Shown here: piece by piece, positions 37,524-45,399 of the stretch
Numbering within the stretch: the stretch's first letter is position 1
How the letters are laid out: every line of letters starts with the position of its first letter
From: Algoriphagus chordae
GTDB taxonomy: Bacteria; Bacteroidota; Bacteroidia; Cytophagales; Cyclobacteriaceae
Reading direction: 5' to 3'
Length of the DNA stretch: 64,000 bases
NCBI RefSeq assembly: GCF_003254055.1
Contig: NZ_QKZT01000005.1
Location: forward strand, 62,001 to 126,000
The notes under the pieces: model-generated
Database searches by the model: none
What the model saw: only the letters and a program-made list of their open reading frames with translations
What the model was told of the DNA's origin: nothing
Position numbers and translations under genes: made by a program

Positions 37524-38402
37524 ATGATCCACCAATTAGAGTCAGAAGAGCTTAGTATATCAGTCAATCAAACTGGAATTGAACTTAGCTCCATCAAATC
37601 AAAATCATCCCAAGTAGAATATTTATGGCAAGGCAACCCAAGTATCTGGAGCGGCCAGTCCCCTATCCTATTTCCCATCATCGGAGCTTTGAAGGATGGA
37701 TATATGATCTATAAAGAACAAAAATACAGGATGCCAAAGCACGGCTTCTTGAGACATTCTACCAAACCAATTCTCAAAGCCTCCACAGACAATTCCCTCC
37801 TATTCTCCCTTAGTTGGGATGAGGAAAGTCTACTTCAATACCCATTCAAATTTGAGTTTGAAGTAGAATTTAGATTAAAGGGAAAGACAATCGAAATCGC
37901 TCATCATATCAGCAATCATGGAGATGAGAGTATGTATTATTCAGTTGGTGGACATCCAGCATTCAATTGTCCACTGCAGCCAGGTGAAAGCTATGAGGAG
38001 TATTCCCTGGAATTTTCTCAACCTGAGACTGATGCAATCTGGCTGGTTAATGATGATGGATTGATCAGTGATCGGACACAAGCATTTCTTGAAAATAGTT
38101 GCTCTATCCAATTACAGGAACATATTTTTGATAAGGATGCCTTGATTTTCAAGAACCTCAAATCCCGAGAAGTTACCTTAACGCACAAGGATAAAGGAGC
38201 TATTTTGAGAGTGAAATTCGATGACTTCGATTACCTAGGAATTTGGGCAAAACCAGGTGCTCCATTCGTCTGCATTGAGCCATGGATCGGTATAGGTGAT
38301 AGCTCAGACTCCAATAACGAATTTGAAGCTAAAGAAGGCTTGCTGAAACTGGAACCTATGCAAACTGAAACCAAAAGCTACTCGATTAGGGTTCTTGACT
38401 AA
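37524..38402 (+). CDS. Aldose 1-epimerase family protein
   Basis: The 292-residue protein is a galactose mutarotase-like beta-sandwich. The segments IIGALKDGY, PKHGFLRHS, SVGGHPAFNCP and CIEPWIGIGD match the YeaD/aldose-epimerase group, with His in KHGF and GGHPAF as likely catalytic residues. It interconverts sugar anomers; the sugar is unknown. It leads a likely plus-strand unit with msrA (26-base gap) and msrB (19-base gap). Confidence 0.88.
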   Translation: MIHQLESEELSISVNQTGIELSSIKSKSSQVEYLWQGNPSIWSGQSPILFPIIGALKDGYMIYKEQKYRMPKHGFLRHSTKPILKASTDNSLLFSLSWDEESLLQYPFKFEFEVEFRLKGKTIEIAHHISNHGDESMYYSVGGHPAFNCPLQPGESYEEYSLEFSQPETDAIWLVNDDGLISDRTQAFLENSCSIQLQEHIFDKDALIFKNLKSREVTLTHKDKGAILRVKFDDFDYLGIWAKPGAPFVCIEPWIGIGDSSDSNNEFEAKEGLLKLEPMQTETKSYSIRVLD

Positions 38403-42316: not shown

Positions 42317-43687
42317 TCAGACCTTGTTTGGAACAGTGTATGGATCACGATAGTCTCTTGTCAGCAATTTGTCAGCTTCCTTGTCCTTGACAAACGTTTC
42401 AGTATCTCCATCAAATCGCAGTTCACGTCCAGTTAGATAAGATACGTTGGCGATCAGTGGTAATACTGAAGACTTAAAGCCTTCCTCTATATCGCAGTGT
42501 AGCGCTTCGTTATTTCCAGCTCTGATTCCATCTAGGAAATTGGCATAATGCTCAGCACCGCCTGGCGCAGCTAAGACTTGGCTACTTGGTGCAGGTGCGG
42601 ATTCTTTTTTGGATTGAGCAAAAGGCTCTTTTTCCTTCTCACGGAATGCTTTCCAAGTTCCACCATCTAATTCCAAATAGCCTTTAGTACCATAAAATAC
42701 ATTCCCGATATGGATGTCTAAGCTAGATTCCCCATTGGTATATCTTCCTCGAGTTTCAAATTCCAGCATGGTTCCATCTGCATACTTGAATGTGGAGCTT
42801 TGCGTATTTGGTGTTTCCTGAGAGCATTCATTTGGATCGATGCCATAGATTCCTCCAGCAGAATATACTGAAACTGGATGCTCATTCTTGTTCATTCCCC
42901 AGCGTGCTACGTCAAACTGATGTGGCCCTTGGTTTCCCGTATCGCCATTTCCTGTTGCCCAGTGCCAGTGCCAGTTGTAATGCACCTTCTTCTCATTATA
43001 TGGAATCATCTGTGCAGGACCTCTCCAGTAATCGTAATGCAATGAAGCAGGTGGCGTACTATCAGGCACCTTGCCAAAAGAATCACGTGGTTTGAAACAG
43101 GTACCACGAGCCATATAGACATCGCCAATTCCTCCACCATGAAGAAATTCCATTGCCTCCATCACATTGGCTATTGATCTGTTTTGGAATCCTACCTGAA
43201 CTCGCCTATCGTATTTGCGGGCAGCTTCCACCATTTTTCTTCCTTCCCAGACATTGTGACTGGCAGGCTTCTCTATATATACATGCTTTCCAGCTTGGCA
43301 AGCCCAGATCGTGGCCAGCGCATGCCAGTGATTCGGTATAGCCATAGACAATGCATCCAATTCCTTATCTTCCAGCACCTTGCGTATATCCCACTCTGTC
43401 ACTGGAGTGATGCCTGTTTTCTCTATAACAACTTTTGACTTTGGTTCGAAATACTGTTCATCGGCATCACACAAGGTCTTTAATCTTACATTTCGATTTT
43501 CTTTCAAGGCACACCATTGATTGATGTGATTACTACCTTGTCCACGAATCCCGACCACAGCAATATTGATTCGCTCATTGGCGCCAATGATTGAGGCATA
43601 AGATTTGGCACTCATACTCATGCCTGCCATTGCTATTCCTGCGGTACCTAAGAGACTTTTCTTAATGAACTCTCTTCTTTTTTCCAT
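42317..43687 (-). CDS. Tat-exported Gfo/Idh/MocA oxidoreductase
   Basis: The 456-residue protein opens with the Tat motif RREFIKKSLLG. Then follow the NAD-binding strand INIAVVGIRGQGSNH and the EKPASHNVWEG motif with the key Lys. The C-terminal domain carries WHWHWATGNGDTGNQGPHQFD, as in Bacteroidota family members that oxidise sugars or inositol-like compounds. The likely role is NAD-dependent glycoside or keto-sugar oxidation in the periplasm with a tightly bound cofactor. It is the first gene of the trio. Confidence 0.9.
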   Translation of the reverse strand: MEKRREFIKKSLLGTAGIAMAGMSMSAKSYASIIGANERINIAVVGIRGQGSNHINQWCALKENRNVRLKTLCDADEQYFEPKSKVVIEKTGITPVTEWDIRKVLEDKELDALSMAIPNHWHALATIWACQAGKHVYIEKPASHNVWEGRKMVEAARKYDRRVQVGFQNRSIANVMEAMEFLHGGGIGDVYMARGTCFKPRDSFGKVPDSTPPASLHYDYWRGPAQMIPYNEKKVHYNWHWHWATGNGDTGNQGPHQFDVARWGMNKNEHPVSVYSAGGIYGIDPNECSQETPNTQSSTFKYADGTMLEFETRGRYTNGESSLDIHIGNVFYGTKGYLELDGGTWKAFREKEKEPFAQSKKESAPAPSSQVLAAPGGAEHYANFLDGIRAGNNEALHCDIEEGFKSSVLPLIANVSYLTGRELRFDGDTETFVKDKEADKLLTRDYRDPYTVPNKV

Positions 43688-44047
43688 TTTACTATAAGGT
43701 TTAGGGTTTGTTGTTAATGCTTTTTATTGTTAGTAATTATTCTCTTTTTCTGCTCAGAGACAGTATTTCTGATATGGATTTTTAATCTAAACATTCTCTT
43801 CCTACTTATCAATACTAATTATTTGTACACCGAAATAACTTGCGCAAACGATTGCTTTTCTCATATGAAATGATGGGCAGAAGCTGAACAACCAGTTCAG
43901 CCCCCCCTTCTCTTACAGGTTTTCAGAGGTGGATTTAATGTATTCTTTATAATGATTATCCCATATCACCATTTACGGTGATATTCTATTTTATCACCAT
44001 TTACGGTGATATTTTGATTTATCACCATTTACGGTGATATTGTGGCT
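43688..44047. other. Divergent intergenic region with operator array
   Basis: This 360-base region separates the Gfo/Idh/MocA gene (minus) and satD (plus). It holds the three-copy palindrome array at 43965-44038 and a hairpin GCTGAAC/GTTCAGC at 43883-43901. No coding frame or RNA gene is recognised. Confidence 0.6.
43965..44038 (+). promoter_or_regulatory. Triple palindromic operator before satD
   Basis: ATCACCATTTACGGTGAT occurs three times without a mismatch, at 43965-43982, 43993-44010 and 44021-44038. The period is exactly 28 bases, and the 10-base spacers differ partly. Each copy has ATCACC/GGTGAT arms. The last copy ends 9 bases before ATG 44048, so a bound protein would block the message start. 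The HTH-like C-terminus of SatD makes self-control a good guess. Confidence 0.8.
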
Positions 44048-44689
44048 ATGATTGCATTACTCACAGGAGACATCATCAATTCGCGAGAGCTAAAGGACCA
44101 GAATCTCTGGATCAATCCATTTAAGAAGTTGCTGCGCAACTGGGGACAAACACCTAAGCAATGGGAGATCTTTCGTGGAGATAGTTTTCAACTGGAAATC
44201 TCTGATCCGCAGGAAAGCTTACTAGCAGCCTTACAGATCAAAGCCCTTATTAAGAGCCTTCCCTATCCTGACGAGACCAAAAGAAGCTCACCAGTAGATG
44301 TGCGCATGGCAATAGGAATCGGTAACAAAACTTATAATGCCGACAGAATATCCGAGAGCAACGGAGAGGCTTTTGTGCGATCAGGTGAAAAATTTGAACA
44401 ACTGAAAAGTGAGATGATCACCCTAGCGATCAACTCCCCTTGGGCAGAATGGAATAATGAGATGAATCTCTACCTGAAATTGGCAGGAATTCAAATGGAT
44501 AGCTGGTCTATATCATCGGGTGAATTGATGTCTGAAATGCTCTCGAATCCAGATCGTACTCAAGCAGAGATCGGAAAATTGCTTCACATCAACCAAAATT
44601 CAGTAAGTAAGCGATACAAGGCCGCAAACGGAGAGGACATCCTAGCTATGGAGAAATTATTCAGAAAGAAACTTAGCCAGTTGCTCTGA
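44048..44689 (+). CDS. SatD family protein
   Basis: I start at ATG 44048 (MIALLTGDIINSRE), which fits the family start; a GTG at 44042 is also in frame. The 213-residue protein has a nucleotidyl-cyclase-like N-terminal part (TGDIINSR, FRGDSFQLE, VRMAIGIG) and a C-terminal helix-turn-helix (AEIGKLLHINQNSVSKRYKAA). The function of SatD is unknown; the HTH suggests a regulator, perhaps of its own operon through the palindromes upstream. Its stop overlaps the DUF3307 start (TGATG). Confidence 0.85.
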   Translation: MIALLTGDIINSRELKDQNLWINPFKKLLRNWGQTPKQWEIFRGDSFQLEISDPQESLLAALQIKALIKSLPYPDETKRSSPVDVRMAIGIGNKTYNADRISESNGEAFVRSGEKFEQLKSEMITLAINSPWAEWNNEMNLYLKLAGIQMDSWSISSGELMSEMLSNPDRTQAEIGKLLHINQNSVSKRYKAANGEDILAMEKLFRKKLSQLL

Positions 44690-45399
44690 TGCTCATATTA
44701 ATCAAACTAATTCTCGCCCATCTCATCGGAGATTTCCTACTCCAGCCCAGCTCATGGGTGAAAGAAAAGGAAAAACTCAAAGCCAAATCGCCCAAACTAT
44801 ACATCCATGTAATTATCCATGGCTTATTGGTCATGCTACTACTTTGGGACCTGAGTCAATGGCCAATCACAATCTGTATTATGGCCGCTCATCTGATCAT
44901 TGATCTGACAAAACTCTATGGCCAAAAGAAGAAAACAAAAACTCGTTGGTTTATCGCAGATCAAGCTATGCATCTACTCAGCATACTTGTGATATGGCTG
45001 ATCTTCACAGATCCTGAGCTAGGCATTCATAGTTTCTTTCAGCAGCCAAAGAATTTAGCATTGATCACCTTGCTGTTTTTCCTCAGCCAACCGACCTCTA
45101 TTATCTTATCCAATTTGCTCACAAACTGGGCAAAATCAATTCCTTCTCAGCCAGGACAATCTCTACAAAATGCCGGTAAATACATAGGGATTCTAGAGCG
45201 ACTATTTGTCTTTTCATTTATCGCCACAGGACATTGGGAGGCTGTAGGATTTTTGCTAGCTGCCAAATCAGTATTTAGATTTGGTGATCTACGAAAGTCA
45301 AAAGAGCGAAAACTCACAGAATACATTCTCATCGGAACCTTGCTAAGCTTTGGTACAGCCATGCTTGCGGGCCTTATCTTTTTATCTATTTCCAATTAA
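44689..45399 (+). CDS. DUF3307 membrane protein
   Basis: The 236-residue protein opens with the DUF3307 motif LAHLIGDFLLQPSSWVKEKEK and has several hydrophobic helices (about 43-62, 92-110, 120-140, 170-190, 210-232) and histidines HVIIHG and HLIIDL. The function is unknown. SatD and DUF3307 genes are usual neighbours. It overlaps satD by one base and abuts the next gene with no gap (TAA directly before ATG). Confidence 0.85.
   Translation: MLILIKLILAHLIGDFLLQPSSWVKEKEKLKAKSPKLYIHVIIHGLLVMLLLWDLSQWPITICIMAAHLIIDLTKLYGQKKKTKTRWFIADQAMHLLSILVIWLIFTDPELGIHSFFQQPKNLALITLLFFLSQPTSIILSNLLTNWAKSIPSQPGQSLQNAGKYIGILERLFVFSFIATGHWEAVGFLLAAKSVFRFGDLRKSKERKLTEYILIGTLLSFGTAMLAGLIFLSISN

Follow-up and report, generated by a model that had tools for sequence, protein, structure and literature searches.

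A probable operator array in front of satD

Three identical palindromes stand directly in front of the gene satD of Algoriphagus chordae, and the question raised by this locus is which protein reads them and with what consequence. The window analysed here is the whole stretch of 64,000 nucleotides in which they lie. The sequence ATCACCATTTACGGTGAT is found exactly at positions 43965-43982, 43993-44010 and 44021-44038, without a mismatch, with the same centre and with start-to-start steps of 28 and 28 bp, as the earlier note had described when it reported three perfect 18-base palindromes with a 28-base period. The ATG of satD is at 44048, which leaves the 9 bases after the last 18-mer that had also been stated. 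Each palindrome grows by one pair to a 20-bp dyad, TATCACC-N6-GGTGATA, and the full unit TATCACC-ATTTAC-GGTGATA is the same in all three units. By pattern count, unit 1 (TATCACCATTTACGGTGATA) occupies 43964-43983, its copy unit 2 occupies 43992-44011, and unit 3, equal to both, occupies 44020-44039 and stops 8 bp short of the ATG; no strand is assigned to them. The two 8-bp spacers differ from each other. Spacer 1 (TTCTATTT, 43984-43991) is asymmetric, likewise without a strand, and is the same or one base off in several sister species, though their unit centres differ. Spacer 2 (TTTTGATT, 44012-44019, plus strand) is the site of a putative −7 promoter element, judged from the TTTG of relatives described below.

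The exact 20-bp pattern occurs at the three array units and at no other place in the 5.19-Mb genome. Palindromes scattered across the genome without a link to satD had been named beforehand as the finding that would speak against an operator of SatD; the exact motif is instead confined to satD. With up to two mismatches to the 18-bp pattern, the window holds besides the array only one site, with two mismatches, at 37908, while shuffled sequences contain on average 2.07 such sites per window. Across the whole genome, the 18-bp pattern with at most one mismatch is found at 36 places (the three array units, one exact copy on another contig and the rest) compared with 6 for the reversed control, and the 20-bp pattern including sites with one and two mismatches at 31 places compared with 15. 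No dispersed regulon was seen for the exact 20-bp pattern. A further palindrome of LacI type, GCAAACGATTGC, is located at 43844-43855 and also upstream of the array in most of the named Algoriphagus loci inspected; it probably goes with the divergent gene of a sugar enzyme (42317-43687).

Arrays in front of satD genes of relatives

In the family, 77 of 196 genomes encode a SatD relative, compared with 94 of 395 in the phylum and 22 of 72 in the genus (20 of 50 if only well-assembled genomes of the genus are counted). The closest named relatives are Algoriphagus species with SatD proteins 85-93% identical. Our first 80 loci comprise 70 from the family search, with that of the window among them, and 10 from the search for named relatives; 67 loci from the phylum search extend the set to 147. 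L088 (the same gene as L017) and L085 (the own genome) were left out, and the genus-level comparison of arrays omits L166, L173 and eight genus loci with a satD equal to that of a named locus.

A search in front of satD in related genomes, as proposed in the earlier note, found the array in most relatives read. Under a strict rule, at least two dyads 27-29 bp apart were present in 62 of the 80 satD loci, compared with 0.06% of 1600 resampled sequences (first-order Markov, from the upstream regions of the 80 loci, 20 each) and none of 80 gene bodies. Three dyads in a row at this distance were found in 37 loci, two in 25, one in 10 and none in 8. A looser score was passed by 129 of the 147 loci and missed by 18, compared with a pass by 10.3% of resampled sequences and none of 147 gene bodies; a higher score, reached by 1.2% of resampled sequences, was reached by 102 of the 147 loci. 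Intervals of 28 bp (160) far outnumber those of 27 or 29 bp (13), a tally tilted towards 28 bp by construction because the chain search was restricted to 27-29 bp and favoured 28. The half-site is TATCAC in the window and elsewhere TATCGG, TATCGT, TATTAC, TATAAG, TATCTG, TGTTAC or ATCAAC. Judged from these upstream regions, the array is kept as an architecture, not as a sequence. Two loci of the same genus (L169, L171) carry TATTGCA-type dyads, an extra half-site code beside the TATCAC and TATCGT types.

The architecture was also found in another phylum. A plasmid of Vibrio lentus encodes a SatD 28% identical to that of the window together with a DUF3307 gene, and its satD is preceded by three TTAGCC-type dyads with steps of 28 and 28 bp. 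In front of the satD-DUF3307 pair on a plasmid of Sphingomonas insulae (L176), an array was looked for and none was found. Its neighbours carry the annotations Pycsar effector and adenylate/guanylate cyclase, with a TIR-domain gene nearby; from this gene content, the setting appears defence-like, without an array.

The SatD protein

SatD has 213 amino acids (44048-44689, plus strand). Its sequence, an AlphaFold2 model with a mean pLDDT of 93.7 and fold searches point to a palm domain of the GGDEF/class III cyclase/Cas10-like kind followed by a C-terminal helix-turn-helix. The predicted palm domain covers approximately residues 1-130 (44048-44437), with conserved D8 and G44-D45. The best Foldseek matches to it are GGDEF domains (4zmu, E 5.3e-4), and VIA-align gave the GGDEF domain 4zvg (Z 9.5, rmsd 3.3 over 126 residues), GTP cyclohydrolase III (Z 9.5) and Cmr2/Cas10 (3ung, Z 9.0). 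D8 is kept in 141 and D45 in 143 of 146 SatD sequences; in the model, this acidic pair sits on strand 1 and the hairpin between strands 2 and 3, at the places of metal-binding acids. The GGDEF signature is absent from this hairpin, where RGDSF is found instead, and SatD is therefore not filed as a diguanylate cyclase. Given the modelled palm domain, SatD is more than a plain repressor: the domain is likely a sensor and may bind or make a nucleotide.

Near the C-terminus, the model places three helices at residues 155-166, 172-179 and 183-192. We take residues 155-192 (44510-44623, plus strand) as a predicted helix-turn-helix and residues 183-192 (44594-44623, plus strand), beginning with Q183, as its recognition helix, which contains the covarying residues Q183, S185 and K188. 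The earlier note had already seen an HTH-like C-terminus in the sequence. In a profile search, no curated family reached its cut-off for this part of the window SatD; Sigma70_r4 and HTH_24 stay below cut-off here and are above it in the relative L028. A PDB sequence search with the helix-turn-helix returned HipB entries at the top, with an insignificant score (E 0.065).

The SatD family PF16264 is named after the sat operon of Streptococcus mutans. The protein of the window shares with it the name, the size and part of the profile, and showed no match to it at E 1e-3; among relatives, L044 (33.9 bits) and L028 (29.1) reach the Pfam cut-off of 29, and L011 has 24.7. In the literature searched, two papers mention SatD in passing, no title among the matches listed is on this protein, and DUF3307 turned up in one paper.

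Covariation of the half-site and the recognition helix

Across the relatives, residues of SatD and bases of the half-site change together. In a distant-pair test (128 loci with an assigned half-site, pairs less than 45% identical in residues 1-150, 212 protein columns), column 183 came top for bases 1, 2 and 3, column 185 for base 5 (z 6.6) and column 188 for base 6 (z 4.9), the latter with a modest lead over 183, I10 and N11 (4.0-4.4). The best column for base 4 was W39 in the palm domain; base 7 gave no helix signal, and base 8 gave Q172 in the helix preceding the recognition helix. In a permutation test in which a single locus stood for each of 46 clusters, 183 was first for bases 1 and 2 (p 0.0004 and 0.0002), 185 for base 5 (p 0.0004) and 188 for base 6 (p 0.0002). 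For base 3, column 183 was only seventh, and for base 4, F116 in the palm domain was best and 188 second. An initial test on 76 loci had also put 185 top for base 5 and 188 top for base 6. A nearest-neighbour pair test ranked 183 first for base 2 and, at bases 5 and 6, did not bring the helix columns to the top (185 ninth, 188 twenty-fourth), probably because its yes/no difference test follows overall divergence; it ran on a half-site assignment that was mis-phased for some loci.

The signal for bases 1-3 rests on few cases because a residue other than Q is found at position 183 in 7 of the 128 loci. The phase of arrays without TAT had to be picked by a rule that prefers TAT at the outer end, so that TAT is favoured by construction; of the loci without Q183, L107 alone can be phased so that TAT is its outer triplet. 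Five of the 128 loci (L014, L024, L061, L076, L114) look mis-phased by eye and were retained as noise.

Among loci with a consensus starting with TAT, base 6 is C in 69 of 70 half-sites with K188 and in 74 of 83 with R188, G in 145 of 196 with E188 and in 76 of 86 with Q188, and T in 91 of 117 with G188. The two R183 loci L107 and L112 have the half-site TGTTAC in place of TATTAC. Of the half-sites scanned in these loci, 5 of 10 and 6 of 8 have G at base 2, compared with 0 of 72 in nine Q183 relatives; the nearest relative, L110, has Q183 and is 86% identical in residues 1-150. As far as sequences can tell, this exchange of Q183 for R183 is the cleanest natural experiment in the set. Contacts of glutamine with adenine and of arginine with guanine are classical, and the side chains at 183 and 188 would fit the bases they go with. 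In the predicted recognition helix, residues 183, 185 and 188 come first, third and sixth, and their covariation with the half-site points to this helix as the seat of site specificity. Most likely, the protein and DNA keys changed together many times across Bacteroidota. The satD loci almost amount to a natural library of paired protein and DNA keys, in which regulator and operator shift their code together across a phylum, at nearly fixed geometry and with one gene per array. They make a helix-turn-helix recognition code directly testable, namely residues 183, 185 and 188 against bases 2, 5 and 6. We did not find this account of the array and its code in print, as far as we searched.

Proposed function and alternative explanations

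From the observed array, its conservation, its restriction to satD, its dyad symmetry and the covariation, we infer binding, dimerisation, cooperativity, repression and nucleotide sensing: the array is very probably the operator of SatD, read by a dimer through the helix-turn-helix, with its own operon probably shut off and the palm domain as sensor. The suggestion of the earlier note that the palindromes are SatD's own operator thus gains support from the confinement of the motif, from the arrays of relatives and from the covariation of half-site and recognition helix. In the mechanism that we propose, a symmetric SatD dimer would dock on each 20-bp dyad through the C-terminal helix-turn-helix and read the six-base half-site TATCAC, with Q183 at bases 1-2, S185 at base 5 and K188 at base 6. 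The six half-sites flip direction every 14 bp (6 + 8 + 6 + 8) and would extend over the presumed core promoter to the start codon. Because a 28-bp step does not complete an integral number of helical turns, successive sites would not lie on one face of the DNA. Bound SatD would probably shut off its own operon together with the membrane protein DUF3307, and a nucleotide bound or made by the palm domain may change DNA binding. The element itself is of an ordinary kind, an autoregulatory operator array; it belongs to an unusual regulator and has a readable protein-DNA code.

The position of the promoter is suggested by the relatives. Of 137 arrays, 61 have the tetramer TTTG in the spacer between the last-but-one and the last unit, and 44 have it behind the last unit; further upstream, it is found in only 8 of 120 and 6 of 45. 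A passage of PMC9723704 gives the flavobacterial −7 box as TAnnTTTG, to which TATTTTG of the window is only an approximate match. A sigma-70 promoter scan returned 7 sites compared with 6.4 in shuffles, none of them at the array. In 58 of 107 loci starting with ATG, a gap of 4-11 bp separates the last unit from the ATG. Across the relatives, the dyads would thus lie at the regulator's own promoter. With the array occupied, promoter and start would both be covered, which makes repression likely.

SatD could also act on the same operator as an activator, or the array could set a threshold for induction. A possible nucleotide-binding domain in SatD and the presence of at least one unit upstream of the putative −7 element would suit such a role; however, a dimer on the last unit would cover the transcription start in the loci where this unit ends so close to the ATG, and the putative −7 element sits between two units, so that we regard activation or a threshold function as unlikely. 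That another regulator binds the array and SatD is merely the gene downstream is distinctly improbable: base 4 does not point first to the SatD helix, but across the 46 clusters the half-site tracks the residues of this helix, with side chains that fit the bases, and a foreign protein would not make the half-site follow SatD's helix. There is also very little to recommend a role of the repeats in mobility or recombination (as REP, MITE or attachment array) in place of regulation. The units look copied within arrays, also in inverted form, and satD is patchy (22 of 72 genus genomes), but the exact motif is not dispersed in its own genome, and position, spacing and half-site follow the downstream gene.

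Finally, the palindromes could form RNA hairpins in the leader and act as attenuator or translational switch. Units 1 and 2 look like terminators in a simple scan, which found 5 such sites in 2.7 kb compared with 1.9 in shuffles. RNA stems favour G-U, whereas a symmetric DNA site treats G-U and A-C alike; on the sense strand, 220 distinct units contain 94 G-U and 93 A-C mismatches at arm positions 4-8 (G-U/A-C by position: 4/5, 13/14, 24/13, 30/37, 23/24), which indicates that symmetric double-stranded DNA is read and not RNA. Hairpins would furthermore give the 28-bp period and the covariation with the helix no role. Five Rfam matches at 43650-44150 (E up to 1, best 0.0042) were all under their gathering scores, and we take them as chance matches to an array of hairpins. 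Given the equal mismatch counts, we reject an RNA hairpin regulator and regard a leader switch as scarcely credible.

Evolution of the arrays

The arrays show signs of concerted evolution in their sequences, which makes concerted evolution of palindromic operator arrays testable. Of 358 unit pairs that share an array and have asymmetric centres, 65 agree in seven or more of the 8 centre bases, compared with 4.3 pairs expected from between-locus pairs. The six central bases have a mean identity of 0.57 within arrays and 0.41 between loci, the spacers one of 0.46 and 0.40. Four unit pairs, in L049, L055, L083 and L160, are near-exact inversions of each other (reverse complement over 19 or 20 bases); at 19/20, 0.77 pairs are expected from all between-locus pairs and 0.05 without the pairs between the closely related Algoriphagus loci. 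Inverted centres identical at 8 of 8 bases occur 5 times within arrays compared with 0.6 expected; once one of the 8 bases may differ, the excess is no longer clear (5 compared with 3.2). The inverted copy in L160 has a base absent from other Algoriphagus units. In L039 and L041, all three centres are GTAAAT, and in L005 and others ATTTAC. Compared with L005, L041 has an identical spacer 2 and a spacer 1 with one base changed; the Algoriphagus tree is too poorly resolved to call the ancestral orientation of the centre. In L164, one broken arm pair is common to all three units.

Template switching between inverted repeats, described in PMC8604942 as homogenising arms and inverting spacers, fits the copied and inverted units. 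Part of the copying could be due to selection on the centre, if a symmetric dimer reads it alike in either direction. As a possibility that we consider less likely than not, we propose a self-rewriting operator in which helix and half-sites change together. SatD would in this reading make or sense a nucleotide through its palm domain and govern both a membrane effector and its own dose. DNA polymerase would switch template between identical palindromes 28 bp apart and copy units either way, leaving the spacers untouched; new half-sites would spread array-wide in concert, and the recognition helix of SatD would follow or lead. Such an array would explain the many codes on a fixed geometry.

Comparison with known systems

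In the right operator of phage lambda, OR1-OR3, which is bound by CI and Cro, three tandem dyads also lie at the regulator's own promoter, and the half-site TATCACC of our array opens OR3 and closes OR1. The best ungapped alignment puts Q172, Q183 and K188 of SatD on Q16, Q27 and K32 of Cro, a likeness that is not significant (shuffle p 0.12). These three residues of Cro make backbone and base contacts. In contrast to the array, the lambda sites are 17 bp long, 23-24 bp apart and mutually non-identical, and the regulator has no palm domain. The lambda operator consensus is given as TAtCACCGCcaGTGaTA in a passage of PMC10742460. HipB of the E. coli hipBA operon is described in PMC3376134 as an autoregulatory helix-turn-helix protein that binds TATCCN8GGATA cooperatively, with half-sites that likewise start with TATC across an 8-bp gap. 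Unlike SatD, HipB is a small antitoxin without a palm domain, and its partner is a kinase toxin (PMC3376134), whereas that of SatD is a membrane protein. By analogy, the array probably works like the lambda and HipB operators.

For the gene layout, the closest comparison is Panoptes, in which, according to PMC12657218, the mCpol gene optS precedes the membrane effector gene optE and OptS has the active-site acids Asp6 and Asp57. The satD-DUF3307 pair has the same layout of a two-gene operon with a palm-fold protein (a nucleotide enzyme in Panoptes) and a membrane protein, and D8 and D45 of SatD resemble Asp6 and Asp57. In contrast, SatD adds a DNA-binding domain and an operator array, and DUF3307, assigned by Pfam, predicted to be all-helical and without a PDB match, does not show the S-2TM-beta effector type. 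The companion paper PMC12657230 makes no mention of SatD, DUF3307, GGDEF or helix-turn-helix. If the self-rewriting proposal were true, SatD would be a DNA-binding cousin of the Panoptes layout. The array offers a handle on the little-studied SatD/DUF3307 pair, in which a palm-fold domain (cyclase/Cas10-like) would be coupled to both a membrane protein and a DNA switch.

DUF3307 and other SatD-like genes

The DUF3307 membrane protein, assigned by Pfam and sequence, is encoded at 44689-45399 on the plus strand, its ATG overlapping the stop codon of satD. Its model contains helices only (pLDDT 82, pTM only 0.54), and a PDB fold search gave no match (best E 0.62). NCBIfam had no match above cut-off for DUF3307, and PADLOC matched neither SatD nor DUF3307. 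A simple motif links DUF3307 to satD in 117 of 147 loci, an undercount because the DUF3307-like frames of L096 and L144 were missed by the motif. The protein resembles the phage family phrog_2470 (membrane protein, moron/host takeover) with E 1.7e-16, and tblastn matched no phage record.

A second SatD-like gene of the own genome lies outside the window (L177, G000:C5:156508-157089; PF16264, E 8e-20). Upstream of it, two imperfect AATTGC-type dyads about 29 bp apart can be seen by eye, with a script chain score of only 3.2, and the frame downstream presumably resembles a gyrase/topoisomerase A subunit. The dyads would fit codes that diverge against cross-talk, as one weak case. Of seven PF16264-type genes examined, four (L178, L179, L181, L183) have weak GAAACA/TGTTTC dyads 29 bp apart, with scores of 6.0-7.4. 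In the PF16264-type genes read, the C-terminal sequence differs from that of the window SatD. Six are accompanied by a shorter membrane partner that has the motif GxLER...K..R in common with the C-terminus of DUF3307.
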